The translations under genes were made by a program, and so were the position numbers. A DNA stretch of 26,983 bases from positions 1-26,983 of the IMG/VR virus record IMGVR_UViG_3300003886_000378. One strand, 5' to 3'. This document shows, in pieces, positions 3,539 through 19,900 of the stretch. Within the stretch, counting starts at the first letter, position 1. Each line of letters opens with the position of its first letter. The stretch comes from a virus. The notes under the pieces were generated by a model. That model had not been told where the DNA came from. It saw nothing but the letters and a program-made list of their open reading frames with translations, and ran no database searches.

Positions 3539-4303
3539 ATGACCGCCCCTGCCGTACAAACATCGGCGCCGTGGTGCACGATCACGGATCTCCCGGCGAA
3601 AGCCTCCGATGGCCGGTGGGAACTGGATCTGTCGGCGGGCGGCGAAATGGCCGACTGGATCCAGGTCGCGTCGGATGTCTTGTTCAATTTGACGCGGCGC
3701 CGCTGGCCGGGGGCGACGACAGTCACGATACGGCCGATGTCGAATCCGGGTCCGGCCGGCGGTGCACCGGCAACGGTCGGGGTCGACGGCGTCTCAGAGA
3801 TCGTGTTGCCGAACCCGCCGGTCGTGTCGATCAGCCAGATCCTGATCGACGGGTCTGTCGTCGCGTCGTCGTTGTACCGGGTCGATGACTGGCGGCGTCT
3901 CGTCTACATTCCGACGGTAGGTGTGACACGTTCGGCGTGGCCTGCGTCGCAGGACCTCGACGCCCCAACCAGCGCGGCGGGAACATTCGCGGTGACATAC
4001 GTTCACGGGACTCCGCCACCCGCGGGCGGCGTTAAGGCATGCGCGGAACTCGCAACCATGCTGGGGATCGGGGCGTCACCGAAACTGGCAGGCCAGGCCC
4101 GTCTACCAGACCGGATGTCGTCGGTGTCCCGTCAAGGCGTGTCGGCTCAGGTCGCCGATCCGTCGACGATGTTCACGGATGGTCAGACCGGTATCCCGGC
4201 TGTGGATCTGTGGGTCGCGTCGGTGAACTTCGGGGCGAAGCAGCGCCGGGGCCGTGTCTACCGGCTCGGGTCGCGTCGCAGCCGCCGAACCACCGCCCCG
4301 TAA
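3539..4303 (+). CDS. Head-to-tail adaptor (connector) protein
   Basis: A 254-residue protein expected to form the ring between portal and tail. The first half has WIQVASDVLFNLTRRRWPG, the middle a beta-rich region with VTYVHGTPPPAGGVKACAE, and the C-terminal part DRMSSVSRQGVSAQ, then DGQTGIPAVDLWVASVN and a basic tail. This is the pattern I associate with actinophage head-to-tail adaptors. The ATG lies 11 bases after the previous stop and has no clear Shine-Dalgarno, so translation may depend on reinitiation. It is the last structural gene before the glycosyltransferase island. Its partner connector genes lie about 8 kb downstream, which suggests the module was split by insertion. Confidence 0.72.
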   Translation: MTAPAVQTSAPWCTITDLPAKASDGRWELDLSAGGEMADWIQVASDVLFNLTRRRWPGATTVTIRPMSNPGPAGGAPATVGVDGVSEIVLPNPPVVSISQILIDGSVVASSLYRVDDWRRLVYIPTVGVTRSAWPASQDLDAPTSAAGTFAVTYVHGTPPPAGGVKACAELATMLGIGASPKLAGQARLPDRMSSVSRQGVSAQVADPSTMFTDGQTGIPAVDLWVASVNFGAKQRRGRVYRLGSRRSRRTTAP

Positions 4304-4311
4304 ATAACGTC

Positions 4312-4320
4312 TGCTACACT
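4312..4320 (+). promoter_or_regulatory. Extended -10 promoter at the head of the island
   Basis: TGCTACACT is a TGN-extended -10 element (TACACT at 4315-4320). Seventeen bases upstream there is no convincing -35. Transcription would start near 4327. The same TACACT hexamer after TGN recurs at 26381-26389, where a -35 is present. An AGAGGAG Shine-Dalgarno at 4332-4338 follows, 7 bases before the ATG of the first island gene. This would allow the island to be transcribed separately from the head genes. Confidence 0.5.
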
Positions 4321-4345
4321 TGGGGTCTGCTAGAGGAGACACCGG

Positions 4346-5320
4346 ATGCACGTCGCATATATTGGGAATTTTCGGGCCCCGCACAGCACAGAGAACCATG
4401 TGGCCCGGGCGATGCGAGCCGACGGCCACACCGTCTCAATGCTCCAAGAAGACGACACGGTGTCGTGGTCGTGGATCGCACGGCCGACAATGCCTGTCGA
4501 CGTGCTCCTCTGGACACACACAGGCGGGTTCCCGCCCGGCGACGAAATCTGGCAACACGAGAATCTCAAATCGTTCCGGATATGGTCCGGAGCCCCGATC
4601 GTCGGTGTGCATCTCGACCGCTGGTGGGGACTACCACGCGAAACACAGATCACCGTCGACCGCAAAGCGTTCTTTCACACACCCGATGTCCTGTACACCG
4701 CCGACGGCGGACACGACCAGCGATGGGCTGATCAAGGGATCGTGCACCGCTGGTTCCCGCCGGGCATCTCAGCCCCCGAATGCGAACCCGGTATCAGATC
4801 CGGGCTCCTCGAATCGGATGTCGCGTTCGTCGGATCATGGCAAGGCGGCTACCACCCCGAATGGCCCCACCGACGGCAACTCGTCGACTGGCTCCAGGCG
4901 TCACCATTCAACGTCACATTCTGGCCACCACCCGGCCAACCTGCGATACGCGGCACGAAACTACGTGCCTTGTACGCCTCCACGAAAGTCGTGGTCGGCG
5001 ATTCGTGCCTTGTCCCGTACCCCAACGGCGACCCGGTCTGCCGCTACTTTTCGGACCGGATCCCGGAAACTATCGGCCGTGGCGGCTACCTGATCCACCC
5101 GCGGGTGGCTGGGGTGACCGACGGGACGCTCTACACGGAGGGCGAACATCTCGGTTGTTGGGGGCTCGGCGACTGGGATGAGCTCGGATATCAGATCGAA
5201 ACTGCGCTCCAGCATCCCGACCAGCGGGCCGCGGTGACGGCGGCAGGCCGGGCGCATGTCCTCGCCGATCACACGTACGAGGTCCGGATGCGGCGACTAC
5301 TCGCTGAGGTCACCGCATGA
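4346..5320 (+). CDS. CgeB-like GT-B glycosyltransferase
   Basis: A 324-residue protein predicted to move a sugar from a nucleotide-sugar donor to an unknown acceptor in the cytoplasm. The N-terminal domain starts with a Rossmann-like strand (MHVAYIGNFRAPHS), then VDVLLWTHTGGFP and IVGVHLDRWWGLP. The C-terminal domain begins near VAFVGSWQ and contains YASTKVVVGDS, then YFSDRIPETIGRGGYLIHP, which is the CgeB/GT1-type donor-binding region with its E-x-x-G-x-G-G pattern. The C-terminal helix (RAHVLADHTYEVRMRRLL) is also typical. The start is fixed by AGAGGAG at 4332-4338. Its end overlaps the next ATG by 4 bases, so the two are translationally coupled. Donor and acceptor cannot be told from sequence. 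Confidence 0.75.
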   Translation: MHVAYIGNFRAPHSTENHVARAMRADGHTVSMLQEDDTVSWSWIARPTMPVDVLLWTHTGGFPPGDEIWQHENLKSFRIWSGAPIVGVHLDRWWGLPRETQITVDRKAFFHTPDVLYTADGGHDQRWADQGIVHRWFPPGISAPECEPGIRSGLLESDVAFVGSWQGGYHPEWPHRRQLVDWLQASPFNVTFWPPPGQPAIRGTKLRALYASTKVVVGDSCLVPYPNGDPVCRYFSDRIPETIGRGGYLIHPRVAGVTDGTLYTEGEHLGCWGLGDWDELGYQIETALQHPDQRAAVTAAGRAHVLADHTYEVRMRRLLAEVTA

Positions 5321-6045
5321 CCCGTGTGGTGTCGTGGTTCTCGGCCGGTGCCGCATCCGCGGTCGCCACGAAACTCGCACTGATCGAAGGCCCGGTCTCC
5401 GTCGTGTATATCGAGACCGGGGCAGAACATCCAGACAACGCGCGATTCGTTGTTGACTGCGCAGAATGGTTCGGTGTCGAGATCGAAACGATCAAGTCGG
5501 ACAGGTACGAGTCGACGTGGGGGGTGTGGGAGAAACGACGGTTCCTGAATTCGCCAGCGGGAGCGCTCTGCACCGCTGAGTTGAAACGGCGGCCACGGTT
5601 TGCCTACCAACGAGGAGATGACCGGCAGGTGTTCGGATACACGGCGGAAGAATCCAGTCGTGCCGACCGGTTCCGGCATCAAAGTCCGGGGGTGGATCTA
5701 TGGACTCCGCTGATCGACCGTGGACTGACAAAACCAGACTGCCTCGCGATGATCGATAGGGCGGGGATCAGGATTCCGGTCATGTACGAACTCGGCTATC
5801 GGAACAACAACTGCATCGGGTGCGTCAAAGGCGGGATGGGGTACTGGAACAAGATCCGTCGCGATTTCCCCGACGTGTTCGCACGGATGGCGTCGCTAGA
5901 GCGGGACATCGGGGCGTCGTGTATCCGGACGGATGGCGAGTCGGTATTTCTGGATTCGTTAGATCCCGATAGGGGCTTGTCGAGCGAGGAACCTGACATG
6001 AGCTGTTCGCTGTTGTGCGTACTCGCAGAGGACGAAGTGACATGA
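5317..6045 (+). CDS. PAPS-reductase-like PP-loop protein
   Basis: A 242-residue member of the adenine nucleotide alpha-hydrolase (PP-loop) superfamily, in the phage subgroup labelled phosphoadenosine phosphosulfate reductase-like. The ATP-binding loop is SAGAAS at residues 9-14, in place of the usual SGGxxS. Family landmarks are YIETGAEHPDN at 31-41, CTAELKRR from Cys85, VFGYTAEE at 105-112, and NNCIGCVKGG with Cys166 and Cys169. Further cysteines lie at 202, 230 and 234, which could hold a cofactor or metal. The true reaction in phages is not established: sulfate activation, sulfur transfer to a nucleic acid, or nucleotide chemistry are all possible. It overlaps the preceding glycosyltransferase stop by ATGA. 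Confidence 0.78.
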   Translation: MTRVVSWFSAGAASAVATKLALIEGPVSVVYIETGAEHPDNARFVVDCAEWFGVEIETIKSDRYESTWGVWEKRRFLNSPAGALCTAELKRRPRFAYQRGDDRQVFGYTAEESSRADRFRHQSPGVDLWTPLIDRGLTKPDCLAMIDRAGIRIPVMYELGYRNNNCIGCVKGGMGYWNKIRRDFPDVFARMASLERDIGASCIRTDGESVFLDSLDPDRGLSSEEPDMSCSLLCVLAEDEVT

Positions 6046-6081
6046 TATGACGGTGTGCTGGCGACAGGGACAGGTCACCGG

Positions 6082-6678
6082 ATGACCGATTACGGGGCTC
6101 TTTGGGATGCACAGTCAGCGACGCGCGAGGATGCGATGTGGGCGGCGTGGGCGAATCCGGGTGACGGCATCGAACACATGTTGGCCCGGATCGGCCCGGC
6201 GGTCGACATCGACGGTCCGGTCGGGTCGATCGGCTGCGGACCGGGACGGCTACTCGTACCGGTCGCTGCGAGGCGCGGAGACGTGTACGGCGTCGATATT
6301 TCCGGCCGGATGCTCGGCCATTGCGGCCACCGGCTTGCAGCGGCCGGTGGCCGGGCGAAACTCGGTTTGGTTGACGGCGACGGGTCGTTGCCGTGGTTCG
6401 ACGGGTGGATGGCCGGGATCTGGTCGGTGCTCGCGTTCCAGCACATGCCCTCCGACACACAGCGCCGGTACGTGTACGAGGCGGCCAGGTGTCTGCGGCC
6501 CGGCGGGATGCTGGTTGTGCAGTGGACCCACAGGTCGCCGGAATCGGTTCTGTCGTTCTCAACGCCGGTCGATGTGATGACCGGCTGGTGCGAAGATGCC
6601 GGTTTTGTGACCGTGGATGTGGCCGCCGATGATCTATATCCGACGTGGCGTTGGGCCACTGCGACTAGAGGAGCATGA
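6082..6678 (+). CDS. Class I SAM-dependent methyltransferase
   Basis: About 198 residues. SAM-binding motif I reads VGSIGCGPGRLLVPV (near residue 50) and is followed by an acidic strand end, VYGVDISGRML. Later motifs are WSVLAFQHMPS and CLRPGGMLVVQWTH, the usual post-II/III region of small-molecule or sugar methyltransferases. Its place among glycosyltransferase genes suggests a sugar or glycan substrate, but this is inference. The frame is also open from a GTG at 6055, 9 bases after the previous stop. The ATG at 6082 is preferred because the family usually starts close to the TDYGALWD-type segment and the GTG has no Shine-Dalgarno. Confidence 0.7.
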   Translation: MTDYGALWDAQSATREDAMWAAWANPGDGIEHMLARIGPAVDIDGPVGSIGCGPGRLLVPVAARRGDVYGVDISGRMLGHCGHRLAAAGGRAKLGLVDGDGSLPWFDGWMAGIWSVLAFQHMPSDTQRRYVYEAARCLRPGGMLVVQWTHRSPESVLSFSTPVDVMTGWCEDAGFVTVDVAADDLYPTWRWATATRGA

Positions 6679-6680
6679 CG

Positions 6681-6983
6681 ATGCAACTGACGATCGATAT
6701 TCCGGTCGGGACGGCACGCAAGGTTGAGGTGGTTGCCGGTGAGATCGCCGACCGGAAACGGTCTGGGCCGCAGACAAGGGTCATCGCGGCGGTCATGGCA
6801 GCGGTAGCGGAGGCGTTGCCCGGGTTTTTCGAGGCCGGCGATGATGTCACTGACCGGGCATCCGGGGAGCGTGCCGTAGTTGATTCGTTCGCGAACGGCG
6901 GTTCGATGGCGGTGATCCACGACGTCGACCATGGAAACTGGCGTGTCGTGTCCTGCGACGATCTCGTGTCCTATCATGCGTGA
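6681..6983 (+). CDS. Small protein of unknown function
   Basis: A 100-residue protein that I do not recognise. It begins MQLTIDIPVGTARKVEV, a beta-hairpin-like start, then a basic helix region and an alanine-rich helix (VIAAVMAAVAEALPGFF). The C-terminal half contains a short GSMAVIHDVDHGNWRVV stretch. There is no signal peptide, membrane span or clear catalytic motif. ATG codons occur at 6675 and 6681. GAGGAG at 6668-6673 is 1 base from the first and 7 from the second, so 6681 is preferred, although 6675 would give the ATGA overlap used elsewhere here. It could be an accessory subunit of a neighbouring enzyme. Confidence 0.5.
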   Translation: MQLTIDIPVGTARKVEVVAGEIADRKRSGPQTRVIAAVMAAVAEALPGFFEAGDDVTDRASGERAVVDSFANGGSMAVIHDVDHGNWRVVSCDDLVSYHA

Positions 6984-7707
6984 CGTCGACATCAACGGCC
7001 GGTGGACGTTGACGCTCCCCGATGACCGTGCAGCCCAATGGGCGCAGTGGGGGGGCCGGTGGGAGGTTGAACGTCTCGACGCGACAGCCGCCGCGGTGCA
7101 GAGAGCCGAGGAACGTTCGACTGCCCCGCCGGTCGTCTACGACATCGGGGCGGAACGCGGCGACCTGCCGTGTCTGTGGGCGACCTGGGGCGCGCGTGTC
7201 GTACTGGTCGAACCGTCGGTAGGCATGTGGCCGACAATCCGTGCAATATTCGAAGCGAACAACATGGCGGAGCGGGTCGCAGGCTGTTTCGTCGGGTTCG
7301 CCGCCGATGCCATACCAGCATCTCGGCGGGCGTTGACAGCGGGGCCGTGGCCGTCCGCGACCCGGCAGGCTGCGATCACGGAACCCGGGTTCGGGCATCT
7401 CAACGAATCCGGCAGCCAGCCGGTATGCACGATCGACTGGCTGGCTGCCGAGCTCGACACGCCACCCGACATAATCACAGTCGACGTGGAAGGCTCCGAA
7501 CTGGCGGTCATGCGAGGCGCCGCCCGGTGCCTCGACCAGCACCGGCCCGATGTCCTGATTTCGGTTCACCCCGATTTCATGGTCGACCGGTACCGGACAT
7601 CGCCGGCGTTGCTCGGCGCCTACATGTCGGCTGCCGGGTATGTCGCCAGCCGTCTGGCGTGCGACCATGAGGAACACTTCATTTACATACCAGAGGAACG
7701 GTCGTGA
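6976..7707 (+). CDS. FkbM-family methyltransferase
   Basis: About 243 residues. Motif I is degenerate but recognisable at residues 53-60 (YDIGAERG) and is followed by VVLVEPSVGMWPTI, the acidic ribose-binding strand. The FkbM signature TIDW then DIITVDVEGSELAVMRGA lies at about residues 153-178. FkbM enzymes methylate hydroxyl groups of sugars or polyketides, so a sugar 2-O- or 3-O-methylation role in the island is plausible. The frame is open further upstream to 6931, but the ATG at 6976 is chosen because it overlaps the previous stop only slightly. It ends overlapping the HNH gene start (TGATG). Confidence 0.75.
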   Translation: MRDVDINGRWTLTLPDDRAAQWAQWGGRWEVERLDATAAAVQRAEERSTAPPVVYDIGAERGDLPCLWATWGARVVLVEPSVGMWPTIRAIFEANNMAERVAGCFVGFAADAIPASRRALTAGPWPSATRQAAITEPGFGHLNESGSQPVCTIDWLAAELDTPPDIITVDVEGSELAVMRGAARCLDQHRPDVLISVHPDFMVDRYRTSPALLGAYMSAAGYVASRLACDHEEHFIYIPEERS

Positions 7708-8132
7708 TGGATTTGCTCGACCGTTTCGTAGCGAAATACACTGTCGAAGATTCTGGCTGTTGGATCTGGCACGCAGGCACATCACGCGGCGGATACGGGA
7801 AGTTCTGGGACCCGCGGCGATATGGGCACATGGCAGCGCACAGATTCTCTTACGAAACTGCTGTCGGCCCGATCCCTGACGGTTTGCAGATCGATCATCT
7901 GTGTCGAGTGCGTGCGTGTGTCAACCCCGACCATCTCGAACCGGTCACACAACGAGAAAACATTCTCAGAGGCGACACACTCGCCACCGCAAAGTTCTAC
8001 CAAAAGCGTTGCATCCACGGTCACAGGTTCAATACACAGAACACATACACCAGACCCAACGGCACACGCGGGTGTCGTCCGTGCAGAGCAAAACGGCAAC
8101 GCGAATATCTGAGACGAAAGAATACTCAATGA
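7707..8132 (+). CDS. HNH endonuclease
   Basis: A 141-residue free-standing HNH nuclease. The core is residues 45-80, with HRFSYE then GPIPDGLQIDHLCRVRACVN: Asp63-His64, Asn73 and His76 are the likely metal and catalytic positions. Cys66 and Cys71, with a C-terminal CIHGH...CRPC set, could bind structural zinc. The basic tail (KRQREYLRRK) fits DNA binding. The start codon overlaps the FkbM stop (TGATG); AGAGGAA at 7692-7698 supports it, and a GTG three bases earlier is the alternative. The end overlaps the next ATG by 4 bases. Such genes are often homing endonucleases in phages, so its function may be unrelated to glycan modification. Confidence 0.85.
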   Translation: MDLLDRFVAKYTVEDSGCWIWHAGTSRGGYGKFWDPRRYGHMAAHRFSYETAVGPIPDGLQIDHLCRVRACVNPDHLEPVTQRENILRGDTLATAKFYQKRCIHGHRFNTQNTYTRPNGTRGCRPCRAKRQREYLRRKNTQ

Positions 8133-13565: not shown

Positions 13566-13825
13566 CCTGGTGGGCGGCGCAACACCGAACCTACATCGAG
13601 GGCCGCCTGATTCTTGCCGGTGTCGACATCGATCAGATGAACATGTCTGCGTTTCTGTGCTGCGTCGAGGCGATCGTTGTGGACACGGTCGCCGGCGGAA
13701 TGGGCGACCGGCTCGCGGTCCTCGAAATGTTGCATAAGCAGCCTGAGGAGATGACCGAAACGGGATGGGGGGCGTCGGACACCGCGCAGGCGGCGGCGCG
13801 TGCCATGATAGGACTCGCCGACTAG
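13218..13825 (+). CDS. Tail assembly chaperone, -1 frameshifted (GT-like) product
   Basis: This is the inferred fusion of the chaperone above with the -1 frame, which is open from 13535 to the TAG at 13823-13825. The joined C-terminal part reads ...FLAARLTWWAAQHRTYIEGR, then LILAGVDIDQMNMSAFLCCV and a long helix, ending ARAMIGLAD. The part between 13566 and 13636 has no ATG and no Shine-Dalgarno, yet reads as plausible protein, which argues for frameshifting rather than independent initiation at 13637. The product would be about 200 residues, normal for GT-type chaperones. No ideal XXXYYYZ heptamer is present. Confidence 0.62.
13535..13563 (+). other. Candidate -1 ribosomal frameshift window
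   Basis: The -1 frame has a TGA at 13532-13534 and the zero frame a TGA at 13563-13565, so any shift must occur between them. The best visible site is CCCTTCC at 13544-13550: a P-site proline tRNA on CCT can re-pair perfectly on CCC after slipping one base back. The A-site pairing (TCC to TTC) is weaker, so this is not a canonical heptamer. Confidence 0.45.
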
Positions 13826-13842: not shown

Positions 13843-16800
13843 ATGGCGATCGGGACGACCGTCGGTTCGGTGTTCGTCAAGATCCGGGCTGACGGTTCGA
13901 AGCTCGGATCCGACATGGACGGGGTCGGTGACAAGGCCGGACGCCGGTTCGGTGCCGGGTTCAGCCGCGGGTTCAAAGCCTTGAAAGTCGGGGCGGTCCT
14001 CGCAGCCGGGCTCGCAGCGGTTTTCGTCAAGAAAGCGGTCGAGGCGGCCTCCGGGTTCGAAACCGAAATGAATCAGGTGTTCACGTTGATGCCGGGGGCG
14101 TCGAAGAAAGCAATGGACGCCATGTCGGCGCAGGTCCTGGGTTTCGCGTCGGATATGGGGGTGCTACCGGAGACAGTCATCCCGGCCCTGTATCAGGCCT
14201 TGTCGGCTGGCGTCCCCGCCAACAACGTGTTCGATTTCATGAAGACCGCTCAGAAAGCGGCGCTAGGGGGCGCCACCGATCTTGAGACGGCGGTCGACGG
14301 GATCTCGTCGGCGGTCAACGCCTACGGTGCCGATGTCCTGTCAGCAGCGAAAGCCTCTGACGACATGTTCACAGCGGTGAGGCTCGGAAAATGTATCCGT
14401 GGGGATCAACGAGTCGTGATGTCCGACGGCACGTATCGTCGCATCGACGAGATGTCCGACGGAGGGACTGTCGTCGCATACGACGGCCGTGGTCTCGTCC
14501 CGGCCGAAGCACGGTGGGTGAGCCAAGGCAAAAAGCCGACGGTTACTCTCGAAACACGGCTCGGCAGGAAAATCGTCACAACGTGGAATCATCCCTATCT
14601 CGTGTCACGTTGCCGACACGGCGATGCATGTCAACGGCATACCTGCAAACGTGAGGAATGGGTGAAGGTCAAGGACATGGCCGTCGGTGATCGTGTCGCG
14701 GTGCCGACACATATCCCGGTCGAAGGAACAGTGTCTGTTGACGAGCATGAAGCGTCGATGCTCGGATTGTGGCTGGCGGAGGGCACCAATGCTCTCGGGT
14801 CTGTCGGCATCACAACCGCCGATTACGGAGACGAAATCGAACTGTGGGCAGCGAAATGGGGGCTTTCGGTGACGGGGCGTACCCCCGCCGGGAAAGCAAC
14901 GACGTACCGTCTCACGGCGGGTCCCCGTGGCACACGTGTCAACCCGCTCACCGAATGGCTCCGTGGAATGGGCCTCGGAGCGCCCGTCGCGAAACATGTC
15001 CCTGCGGTGGTGTTCGGATGGGATCGCGAATCGACAGCAACAATGTTGCGATGGTTTTTCAACGGCGATGGTTGGCTCGCTGATCTCCGACCGTCAGGTG
15101 CATCCGGGTTTCAGGTCGGCGTCTGCTCGAAAGATGAGCAACTGATCCGGGATGTGTCGCATCTGCTGCTCCGGTTCGGGATCGTCGGCCGTGTCCGTCA
15201 CCGGCCCAAGGTCCACGCATGGGTGTGGGAAACAAACCGGTGGTCACAGATCGACCGGTTCGTACGGCTCATCGGCATTGATCGCCCCGCGGCACGCCTC
15301 GTATCCGGGCACGAGCCGCAGAAACAAAGACGACATGTCGGGCAGATCGAGTTCGATCCGGTTGTCGCCATCGTCGAGAATGAACCCGCGGACGTGTATG
15401 ACCTCATGGTCGACGGCTACCACAATTTCGTGGCCGAAGACATGATCGCCCATAACACGACTTTCCCTGAGCTGGCCCGGTCCTTGTTCAACGTCACGCC
15501 GGTCGCGGCGGCGTTGGGGGTTTCGTTCGATGACGTGACCGCCGGGCTGGCGGCGATCACCGCGCAGGGCACACCGACGTCGGTCGCTGCGACACAGATG
15601 CGGCAACTGTTCGTTGAACTATCCAAAGCCGGTGGGCAGGCAGCGACGACATTTCAGGGGCTGGCCGGGAAATCGTTCCAGGATTTCATCGCCGGGGGTG
15701 GTGATGTCGCCGGGGCGTTGGCGGTCATGGCGAAAGGCGCCGGTGCGTCCGGTTTGCAGATCCAGGACATGTTCTCGTCGGTCGAGGCCGGGCAGGCCGC
15801 TTTGCAGTTGTCGGGCAACAAGGCGTTTGTGTCGACGGTCAAAGAGATGGGATCGGCGGCCGGGGCGACCGGCGCTGCGTATGATCAGATGGATCAGGGG
15901 ATCGCCCGGTCGTCGGATCGGATAGCCGCGAAGTGGGCGACCATGAAAATCCGTGCCGGCGACGCGCTCGCACCGATCATCGAGAAGATGATGGAGATTG
16001 CGTTGGTGTGGGCGCCGAAGATTTCGGCGGCGATCGGTGACATGGTGACGAAGGTCGCAGGGTGGCTCGAAGCAAACCGGACGAAATTCGAGGCGACATG
16101 GAACGCGATCAGGATGGTGGTCGTCGGGGTTGTCGATGCGATCCGGGCAACAATCAACAATGTGCGTGACAACATGTCGGCGTGGGCGCCGGTTATGGCT
16201 GCGGCGATCGCTGTGATTGTGACCGGGCTGGTCTTGTGGACGGTGTCAGCGGTGGCGGCCGGTGCGGCGTCTATCTCTGCTGCGGTCGCGGCGGGGGTGG
16301 CGTGGGCGGCCGCTGCTGCCCCGTTGACATTGACGATCGTGACGATCGCTGCGGTCGCGGCGGCGTTCACGCTCGCTTATCAGCACATCGAAAAGTTTCG
16401 TGCCGCGGTCGACGCGGTAGGCCGATTTGTGCGCGACCGGTGGCGTCCGGTCCTCGATGGCATCCGGGCTGCCATCGTCTACACGTTCATCGGCCTCGGA
16501 CCGCGTCTCTGGGCGTTGATCAGAATCGCCTGGGATTACCTGGTCGCCAAGGTCAAAACTTTGAATCCGATCAATCTCGGCGGCAAGATCATCGGGTCGC
16601 TGCCGGGTGTCGGATTGTTTCGGCGGGCCGCCGGGCTGATCCCGGGGTTTGCTTCGGGTGCCGTGTTGACGAAACCGACCTTGTTTGTGGGTGGTGAAGG
16701 CGGGTCGCCGCCGGAGATCGTGACACCGCAGGCGTTGATGGCCAAAACGTTTGCTGCTGTCCTGGCCCGTCAAGGCGGCGGCGGTGATATCCGTTTCGCG

Positions 16801-16947
16801 TCGGGGGCGATCGTCGTGAACATGTCGGGTGGCAGTGACCGGGAGGCACGCCGGGCCGGTGAGACGATCGCCGATATTGTGGCGGCACGGCTCAGTGAGC
16901 GTCGCGCCGCGGTGTCTGTCCGTGCTAGGCAGGGGGTGTCGGCGTGA
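13843..16947 (+). CDS. Tape measure protein with an in-frame intein
   Basis: The precursor has 1034 residues; splicing out residues 184-538 gives 679, which would imply a tail of about 100 nm by the usual 0.15 nm per residue. The start is supported by AGGAAAGGGA at 13827-13836; open codons upstream overlap the chaperone. The N-terminus has a hydrophobic helix (VGAVLAAGLAAVF near 50), then the TP901-type core with ETEMNQVFTLMPGASKKAMD, and the extein junction FTAVRLGK/TTFPELARSLF, a conserved site of this family. A long hydrophobic region lies near precursor residues 783-845. The C-terminus has FASGAVLTKPTLFVGGEGG and ends in a basic helix. It sets tail length and probably helps DNA entry. The stop overlaps the next GTG. 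Confidence 0.9.
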   Translation: MAIGTTVGSVFVKIRADGSKLGSDMDGVGDKAGRRFGAGFSRGFKALKVGAVLAAGLAAVFVKKAVEAASGFETEMNQVFTLMPGASKKAMDAMSAQVLGFASDMGVLPETVIPALYQALSAGVPANNVFDFMKTAQKAALGGATDLETAVDGISSAVNAYGADVLSAAKASDDMFTAVRLGKCIRGDQRVVMSDGTYRRIDEMSDGGTVVAYDGRGLVPAEARWVSQGKKPTVTLETRLGRKIVTTWNHPYLVSRCRHGDACQRHTCKREEWVKVKDMAVGDRVAVPTHIPVEGTVSVDEHEASMLGLWLAEGTNALGSVGITTADYGDEIELWAAKWGLSVTGRTPAGKATTYRLTAGPRGTRVNPLTEWLRGMGLGAPVAKHVPAVVFGWDRESTATMLRWFFNGDGWLADLRPSGASGFQVGVCSKDEQLIRDVSHLLLRFGIVGRVRHRPKVHAWVWETNRWSQIDRFVRLIGIDRPAARLVSGHEPQKQRRHVGQIEFDPVVAIVENEPADVYDLMVDGYHNFVAEDMIAHNTTFPELARSLFNVTPVAAALGVSFDDVTAGLAAITAQGTPTSVAATQMRQLFVELSKAGGQAATTFQGLAGKSFQDFIAGGGDVAGALAVMAKGAGASGLQIQDMFSSVEAGQAALQLSGNKAFVSTVKEMGSAAGATGAAYDQMDQGIARSSDRIAAKWATMKIRAGDALAPIIEKMMEIALVWAPKISAAIGDMVTKVAGWLEANRTKFEATWNAIRMVVVGVVDAIRATINNVRDNMSAWAPVMAAAIAVIVTGLVLWTVSAVAAGAASISAAVAAGVAWAAAAAPLTLTIVTIAAVAAAFTLAYQHIEKFRAAVDAVGRFVRDRWRPVLDGIRAAIVYTFIGLGPRLWALIRIAWDYLVAKVKTLNPINLGGKIIGSLPGVGLFRRAAGLIPGFASGAVLTKPTLFVGGEGGSPPEIVTPQALMAKTFAAVLARQGGGGDIRFASGAIVVNMSGGSDREARRAGETIADIVAARLSERRAAVSVRARQGVSA
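14392..15456 (+). mobile_element. LAGLIDADG intein in the tape measure gene
   Basis: It has 355 residues, in frame. Block A starts at Cys1 (CIRGDQRVVMSDGTYRRID); block B is KIVTTWNHPYLV with the T-x-x-H arrangement. Block F reads VYDLMVDGYHNFVAED; block G ends MIAHN, with penultimate His, terminal Asn and extein +1 Thr. These are all residues needed for class 1 splicing. Between them lie two LAGLIDADG motifs: MLGLWLAEGTN (about intein residues 122-132) and MLRWFFNGDGWL (about 218-230), each keeping an acidic residue, so the homing endonuclease may be active. A Cys/His-rich insert SRCRHGDACQRHTCKREEW follows block B and could bind zinc. Joining K183 to T539 restores GKTTF, a conserved tape-measure segment. 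Confidence 0.93.
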
Positions 16948-19900
16948 CTTTGTCGCATTGGAATCCGTCGACCCCGAACCGTGTCGGTCTCGAGTATGAG
17001 GCTGATCTGGCGTCCGGGTCGGTTGGGACGAAACAGTTGTCGCTGGTGCAGGGCTGGATACAGCGGATGCGGTCGGAGACCGCTGAGACTGTCGACGGTG
17101 TTGTGGTCGGCCGGACAATCGCTGCGCCGCCTTCGTCTGTGGACGACGATTATTCGGCGTGGCTGCTCGAAGTGTTGACCGCCGGATCGGAAGCAGCCGT
17201 GTTCGGGGCGGGAACCGATTATCTACCGAACGGCGATGGTGCTGTAGGCGCTGAGTGGATCACACAGAGTTCTCCTGTCCCGGTAGGGTCGTTGTCGGTC
17301 GCTACACAAGCCACATTGCCGTTTAGTTTGGGATTTTCGGCTGACGGCACGAAAGCCTACATCGTCGATTTCACCACCGCGGCGGTCTACCAGTACACGT
17401 TGTCGACGGCGTGGGACATTTCGACCGGGACATACGCGACGAAATCGTTGTCGGTCACGACGCAAGAATCGCAGCCGACCGGAATGGGATTTTCGGCTGA
17501 CGGCACGAAAGCCTACGTCATCGGTTTTATCAACAAAACGGTCTACCAGTACACGCTCAGCACGGCGTGGGACATCAGCACCGGGACATACGCGACGAAA
17601 TCGTTGTCGGTCGCAACCGAAGATACCGATCCGTCCGGTATCGGATTTTCGGCTGACGGCACGAAAGCCTACATCACCGGCAATATCAACAACACGGTCT
17701 ACCAGTACACGTTGTCGACGGCGTGGGACATTTCGACCGGGACATACGCGACGAAATCGTTGTCGGTCGCAACCGAAGCTCCCGGTCCACGCGGTATCGG
17801 ATTTTCGGCTGACGGCACGAGTGTCTACATCACCGATACTTCGACCGCGGCGGTCTACCAGTACACGCTCAGCACGGCGTGGGACATCAGCACCGGGACA
17901 TACGCGACGAAATCGTTGTCCACAGGTTTGCAAGACATAACTCCGGTTGGTATCGGATTTTCGGCTGACGGCCTGAGCGTCTACATGCTCGGCCAAGCCA
18001 ACAACACGGTCTACCAGTACACGTTGTCGACGGCGTGGGACATTTCTGCATTGGCCCCGAACCTGTACCTGTCGACCGATGACACGCTCACCAGCACATT
18101 CGTTTATGTGTCGAACAGCACCGGGGCGTCGGTCCAGCCGACGTACGAGACACAGTTCGCTGTCGGCGCTGCGACGTTCACATCGAAACGCATCAAACTT
18201 CAACTCAAAATCAGTACACGGTTAGCGACGGGTGCAGGCCAAACCGATGTCCCGTGGATCATCGGGTTTACGACCAACTCCGGAACCGATCACTGTATTT
18301 TCGCTCAACTCAACGCCGCCGGTAGTTACACGCTTGACCTGCCGGAGATCAATCCGTTTACGAAACTCGCGTGGACGCAGGCAGACGTACAAGCGTTCGA
18401 TTCGACGTCACGGATCACGCTACGGCCAGCATCGCTGGTGGCCCCGTCGACGTTCACACAGAATGTGGTCTATTCGATGTCGCTCAACGTGGCGGCCGTC
18501 GCCGAGAACCGGCAGGCGATAGCGGTCGGCATGGACGCGGCCGCCGCGACAAACAGGCAGAAAACGTTGACGTTGACACAAGACGACGTGACGACAGCAT
18601 GGACGAAAGCCGTGAACACGACCTATTCGGTGGTGATCCGGGCGTTGTCGCTCGGCGCTGCGACACTCGGCTACCTGTATGTTGATAACGGGACGACACA
18701 GGAACGCTGGTATTCGACCGGACCGACGATCCCGTATCTGACCGGCCCGACCGACCCGGGATGGACCGGATACGCGGTCGATGTCGCCGCGGTCACCGCT
18801 GACGGTCTGATCGTCGCGACCGGAACAACCACATGGGCGGCAGTCGCCGCGGGTGCGATCGCACAAATCATTTGGCTGTCAGGGGCGACCGAACGGACAG
18901 ATTCGCAGCCGTACTCGGCGGTCCGCGACGACCCGGTATCGACCGGCGCCGCGTTGTATCAAGAGTTTCTGGCTCCGGCGTCGGCGTCGTTTGATGGCGT
19001 CGAGTTCATCGGATACATCCCGTCGACGGCACGACCAACCTCGGATCTGACAGTCGAAGTGCAACGGATCTCCGACTCGACCGTGTTCGGGACAGGGACG
19101 GTCACACCGACCGCGGTCGATGATTCGCCGCTGATCGGCGGATCTGCGTGGCGCAAAATCACGGTCGCCATGACCTCTGTTGTGGCGCTCGTAGCTGGCA
19201 CCGGATACAAGATCGTGTTCTCATCGCCGACCCCCGACAGTCTCCCATACCGGATCCAAGGCCTCGACACGCAGCAGAACTTGACGTCAACCGGATACGG
19301 CGCATCGGGTTTCGGTGGGATCGGCTCGAGCGCTGTGATCGGCGGTGTCGCACGCGACGAAGCCGACGTTGTTGCCTGGGCGTACGACGGGCCTACACCA
19401 CCGGCGTCGCTGACAGGTGTCGGCGGCGCGGTGGCGTCGGCGTGGACCGGCATGATCGGCGTTGACCCGGTCGCATGTCCGCCGACAGCAGTCCCATACA
19501 TAGCGTTGTCGTGGACTGCGACGACGCTCAGCGGAGGGTTCATCGAATATGATCTGCAACGCCGCGACGCCGTCGACACGACATGGCAGACCATCGCGAC
19601 GATTATCGTTGAAGCGACCAGTTCGTTCGCCGATTATGAGGCACGCATGTCGGTCGACGTCGACTACCGGATCCGTGCCGTGTCGTCGTACGGTGCCGGG
19701 TCATGGTCGACGATCGTCGGCGTGTCGATCGAAGCCGCAGCGGCGATGCTGACGTTCACAACGAACATCGACCGGACCCGGGTCGTCGCGGTGCTCGACA
19801 CGTACAGCAACGACGCAACCATCGAATACGATTTCGCGGAGGCAAGCCAACTTCTCTCATATCCGGTGCACGGCCGTGACACGCCGGTCGTGTTCAAACC

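Follow-up and report, generated by a model that had tools for sequence, protein, structure and literature searches.

Why does the tape measure protein (TMP) gene of a tailed phage contain several hundred codons that its homologues lack, and what keeps them there? We addressed this question at a locus in the IMG/VR virus record IMGVR_UViG_3300003886_000378, of which positions 1 to 26,983 (26,983 bases in all) were analysed; this whole stretch is referred to here as the window. Insertion points are marked below by an arrow, as in GK↓T.

An intein within the tape measure gene

Head, tail and connector genes, recognised by their PHROG matches, precede a single plus-strand tape measure ORF that ends at 16947 (stop codon 16945-16947). 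Its likely start is the ATG at 13843, and a further in-frame ATG lies upstream at 13765. Without the insert, the gene encodes a TMP of 679 residues with exteins of 183 and 496 residues, which match the TP901 and PhageMin_Tail tape measure profiles as well as the PHROG 991 tail tape measure family (8.6e-58); the N-extein is 51-72% identical to IMG/VR homologues with an empty site. Elsewhere in the window, glycosyltransferase, PAPS reductase-like and methyltransferase-like genes are found within the head/tail gene cluster (4346-6678). The TMP gene is followed by a 1080-residue ORF with a tandem repeat of ~156 bp in ~4 copies (17331-18046); this repeat (GFSADGTKAYI...YQYTLSTAWDIS) resembles beta-propeller-type repeats and gave no PHROG match.

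Features of the interrupted tape measure gene, in window coordinates
Feature	Coordinates	Strand	Evidence
N-extein of TMP, 183 aa, ends ...FTAVRLGK	13843..14391	+	PHROG tail length tape measure families, TP901 profile
Intein, 355 aa, class 1 by motifs, LAGLIDADG endonuclease	14392..15456	+	Profiles, alignment, AlphaFold model
Cys1, first splicing nucleophile	14392..14394	+	Invariant in 8 full-length members; NCBIfam intein_Nterm begins here
Block B TTWNH (TxxH motif), residues 63-67	14578..14592	+	Invariant in 8 full-length members
LAGLIDADG motif 1 LGLWLAEG, catalytic acid E130	14761..14784	+	Alignment; model helix 118-130
LAGLIDADG motif 2 LRWFFNGDG, catalytic acid D226	15046..15072	+	Alignment; model helix 212-226
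Blocks F/G DVYDLMVDGYHNFVAEDMIAHN, ends His354-Asn355	15391..15456	+	NCBIfam intein_Cterm; alignment
C-extein of TMP, 496 aa, starts TTFPELARSL, +1 Thr, with stop	15457..16947	+	TIGR01760 tape_meas_TP901 1.6e-19; junction continuous in homologues

An initial annotation had placed a complete LAGLIDADG intein at this position, with all class 1 splicing residues present and the acidic residues of both endonuclease motifs retained. Its coordinates proved exact, as the 355 codons run through the single TMP ORF without a stop or frameshift, and the listed residues were all found. The Pfam profile Intein_splicing matched intein residues 8-355 (1e-15) and LAGLIDADG_3 matched residues 216-273, in the second half (4e-10), while the NCBIfam models intein_Nterm and intein_Cterm matched the two intein ends, both above their cut-offs. 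Cys1, TTWNH, blocks F and G (which read VYDL...HNFVAEDMIAHN) and the +1 Thr are present, and the intein therefore belongs to class 1 by motif; its C-terminal junction, AHN↓T, comprises the penultimate His354, Asn355 and the +1 Thr. Both E130 and D226 are invariant across the eight aligned full-length family members. Judged from its sequence, the insert is an intact class 1 intein with a two-motif LAGLIDADG endonuclease, and its motifs indicate that it most likely splices.

An AlphaFold model of the window intein, based on the alignment of the eight full-length members (mean pLDDT 86.9, pTM 0.88), covers the complete HINT and LAGLIDADG fold; this is a prediction of fold, apart from activity. 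VIA-align superposed the full chain on the TliVMA intein (7qsu; Z 32.9, 313 residues, 3.1 A), with PI-PfuI (1dq3) and intein homing endonuclease II (2cw7) as further full-chain matches; DnaB inteins (1mi8; Z 21.5, 1.1 A) matched the splicing part. The HINT fold of the model aligned to DnaB, RecA and VMA inteins with Z scores of 20-33. The best structural match was to the archaeal VMA-b inteins (TliVMA, PhoVMA; 7qsu, 7qss, 7qst), which likewise combine HINT and LAGLIDADG domains. VMA-b inteins insert in a P-loop motif and carry an accessory domain (PMC8966425), and in this insertion point they resemble the TMP intein, whereas their host is a P-loop ATPase (~23% sequence identity) and the TMP is a predicted all-helical structural protein. 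As the PDB holds few full-length LAGLIDADG inteins, the Foldseek/VIA ranking was not read as kinship to VMA inteins, and this candidate relationship was set aside.

The insertion site is empty in most tape measure genes

If the insert is an intein, its removal should rejoin a continuous TMP, and the initial annotation had pointed to a conserved GK-TT(F) segment of TP901 type and to empty sites in related tape measure genes. Uninterrupted homologues bore this out: 83 of 83 align across the junction with 0 extra bases, 82 of them reading GK-T and one GK-M. This set comprises 3 public phages and 80 IMG/VR contigs, some near-identical, so that independent cases are fewer. The exact coordinates together with the seamless junction go far beyond chance and are confirmed.

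Such exact rejoining also bears on whether the insert is an intein at all, rather than an in-frame domain of a mosaic TMP that undergoes Hint-type processing without ligation. Hint domains are found in non-intein autoprocessing proteins too, and that of Hedgehog can be superposed on the splicing part of the window intein. The C-terminal His-Asn followed by the +1 Thr, the LAGLIDADG insertion and the 83 precisely continuous homologues nevertheless argue against a domain of this kind, which we regard as extremely improbable.

A DNA pattern for FTAVxxGKT was found in at least 120 contigs, and 95 of the 118 new loci examined proved to be TMPs (tblastn) with an empty site. With Thr replaced by Cys, the pattern (FTAVxxGKC) occurred in 17 contigs, 7 of them TMPs with an intein, and a second DNA pattern, FTT[VI]xxGKC, returned no lineages beyond those already found. 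At least 93% of the TMPs with the FTAVxx upstream motif are without an intein. With at least 95 empty FTAVxxGKT loci versus 7 occupied FTAVxxGKC loci, this conserved point is seldom occupied, and its occupancy is sporadic. No near-identical pair of occupied and empty alleles was found, the nearest empty relative of an occupied TMP being ~74% identical (L103/L006); thus, recent homing was not caught.

A family of inteins at one point of distant tape measure proteins

The window intein is no singleton. Profile searches with the intein identified 14 other IMG/VR contigs, in all of which it lies in a TMP at the same GK↓T point (once GQ↓T). Screening IMG/VR with overly strict patterns, based on the full-length precursor or on this intein alone, gave no match; of the genome contig profile scans, the first gave no match and the second one locus. 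Two of the 14 contigs (L111 and L113) end within the intein, leaving the N-side alone visible. When near-identical contigs are merged (L104/L105/L110 and L116/L117), the 14 represent ~11 lineages, so that related inteins occupy the same site, always sporadically, in ~12 lineages counting the window. In the L116/L117 intein (L116:3001-4236), which is ~60 residues longer, the extra sequence KVSSDVVQEICAIYTSGDYTQEEIAKKYGLSQQCISLIINGKRRG before block F reads like a helix-turn-helix and is possibly an added DNA-recognition module.

In the tree, the TMP GK↓T inteins form one clade with an SH-aLRT of 100. Pairwise identity across the family is 43-67%, with one close pair at 95%; the window intein, at 43-55% to the others and on a long branch of 0.85, is one of the more divergent members. 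Across the occupied loci measured, GC content spans 42% to 69%, and in every case the intein has a slightly lower GC content than its flanks. The TMPs of L109 and L115/L116 are 24-30% identical to the rest, and their inteins are 43-61% identical to other members, with values of ~50-60% for L109 and L115. Vertical descent alone would fit this discordance poorly, whereas transfer between distant TMPs at one point would fit it well.

We then considered selection on the endonuclease. Over the 203 codons of this region, the close pair L104 and L106 differ at 58 codons synonymously versus 11 nonsynonymously, from which it follows that in these relatives the endonuclease is being kept by purifying selection; the pattern of codon differences is similar in the splicing part and the exteins. 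No close homologue of the window intein itself was found, and the comparison covered this pair of relatives. The sporadic and cross-lineage occurrence at a conserved site is what a homing element would leave, and it lends indirect support to the predicted cleavage of empty sites.

We consider it very probable that a mobile class 1 LAGLIDADG intein has colonised the TMP gene of a tailed phage at the conserved GK↓T codon pair. Following translation, the intein would be excised by an N-S acyl shift at Cys1, transfer to the +1 Thr and cyclisation of Asn355, which would yield a normal 679-residue TMP. In a cell infected by two phages, the endonuclease would cut the empty TMP allele around the GK↓T codons, and repair of the cut allele would copy the intein across. 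As a selfish element, the intein would owe its persistence to its target, since TP901-type TMPs almost always have GKT there and the site lies in a predicted turn between helices.

The initial annotation had also suggested that splicing would set the time at which the ruler is competent for assembly. Retained as a regulator, the intein would delay the TMP until tail assembly through conditional splicing in response to redox, DNA or temperature. Conditional splicing has been described for other inteins in work cited in PMC7156551, and with an insertion within the helical core of the TMP the unspliced precursor is probably not functional. However, the intein is missing from the majority of homologues that share the upstream motif, its distribution is sporadic and crosses TMP families, and relatives show purifying selection on the endonuclease. 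Homing alone accounts for this pattern; the suggested control of assembly was therefore not upheld, and retention for regulation appears very unlikely.

A relative that has lost its splicing residues

One member of the clade is free-standing. In contig JACSRF010000162.1 of an Anaerolinea MAG (L114), a 367-residue ORF (3971-5074) has lost Cys1, the block B Thr and the C-terminal His-Asn and has kept both LAGLIDADG motifs. Directly downstream of this ORF is an uninterrupted TMP (5145-8096) with a target that reads GGK-L-TFEEL, and a residue other than Thr at the target occurs in only 1 of the 83 other empty TMPs. This single case suggests an intein that has become a free-standing endonuclease and whose target has changed; lying beside that altered target, it would provide a natural snapshot of the passage from an intein to a lone homing endonuclease. 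An HNH-like ORF (3612-3974) overlaps the start of the free-standing LAGLIDADG ORF.

The loss of splicing residues in this related copy, together with the long branch of the window intein, could also be taken to mean that the window copy is a fading relic, in which the endonuclease or splicing is impaired, or in which partial splicing is costly to the phage. The window copy itself, however, has all catalytic residues and neither a frameshift nor a stop, and we therefore consider such decay unlikely.

The target turn and a possible origin from P-loop inteins

To what extent does the TMP site resemble the P-loops in which other inteins reside? AlphaFold, run on 20 empty TMP cores (mean pLDDT 91.5), predicts an all-helical domain with no strand, in which the GKTT turn (residues 128-131 of L006) connects helices 114-127 and 132-141. 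Because no strands are predicted and TAVRLGKT has Thr where a P-loop has its first glycine, the GKT site of TMPs is not a P-loop, and the host does not qualify as a P-loop NTPase. A PDB search with the TMP core gave no significant fold match (best E 0.04); therefore, the fold was judged from prediction alone.

In the window and nearly all relatives, the insertion is at GK↓T. The corresponding position of the Walker A motif, between Lys and Thr/Ser, is a 'classic' intein point, and TerL1-a of mycobacteriophages occupies this 'classic' P-loop point (PMC5050341). Several of the top relatives outside TMPs sit there. The best-scoring among them are bacterial DnaB/AAA+ P-loop inteins and phage terminase and helicase P-loop inteins (Bacillus phage KLEB27-3 TerL, Salmonella phage helicase), which share the GK/AK↓T/S point, although the TMP site is no P-loop. 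In INPHARED, the nearest non-TMP relatives include the Salmonella phage helicase intein (MGSGK↓TSST) and the Bacillus phage terminase intein (RRIGK↓TWTM). Bacterial relatives were sought in 400 genomes from the phylum of the Anaerolinea MAG, where, after the MAG itself, the highest scores (150-136 bits) belonged to 3 inteins in AAA+-like ORFs, inserted at PGTAK↓S. The next matches were varied: DnaB inteins at GK↓T were frequent among them, and others sat at another DnaB site or at an FNK↓SHAADY site whose host is labelled DnaE.

These similarities suggest the hypothesis that the TMP intein derives from a P-loop intein by a move onto a look-alike GKT. We advance it only as a hypothesis, because the tree places no P-loop or other intein group as sister of the TMP clade and because P-loop inteins are common. 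A fuller scenario is possible but tentative, in our view closer to a one-in-three guess than to an even one: an intein whose endonuclease was directed at the GK-T codons in the P-loop of an ATPase would have jumped to the look-alike GKT turn of a TMP and founded a TMP-only clade, which homing would then have carried between distant tailed phages; in at least one case splicing would have been shed, leaving a free-standing endonuclease beside a GK-L TMP. The short GKT turn of a non-ATPase thus offers a testable case of inteins jumping between genes via a DNA look-alike.

Relation to known systems

The initial view that a TMP is an unusual intein host agrees with our survey of the open-licence literature, in which no published case of an intein in a tape measure protein was found. 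The find is a class 1 LAGLIDADG intein; what is new is the host gene and the site. A structural morphogenesis gene with its own recurrent site thereby joins the intein hosts. Automated annotation is expected to misread such TMP genes, as the ORF length exceeds the ruler by ~350 residues, and this matters for tail-length prediction.

The TMP of Gordonia phage BearBQ (OR253908, gene 17) also has an intein (L002:8313-9428), which matches the window intein over its full length at 26% identity and is not named in the GenBank product line or feature table. This phage had come up as a same-site case through a tblastn match to the precursor and was ruled out, the insertion site being different: it lies at WGDC↓SGA, unlike GK↓T, where the sequence resembles that around the catalytic Cys of an NlpC/P60 peptidase domain, and the TMP GK↓T clade does not include this intein. 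Homing endonucleases are known to target tape measure genes, in ICP1 and elsewhere (PMC10448857); the tape measure of ICP1 has an HNH-type endonuclease gene that is removed by transcript splicing, in contrast to the intein described here. Another phage structural host protein is the portal protein of Mycobacterium phage ET08 (L122:2001-3068), which has an intein-like insert, KFS↓TLN, related to the TMP intein family.
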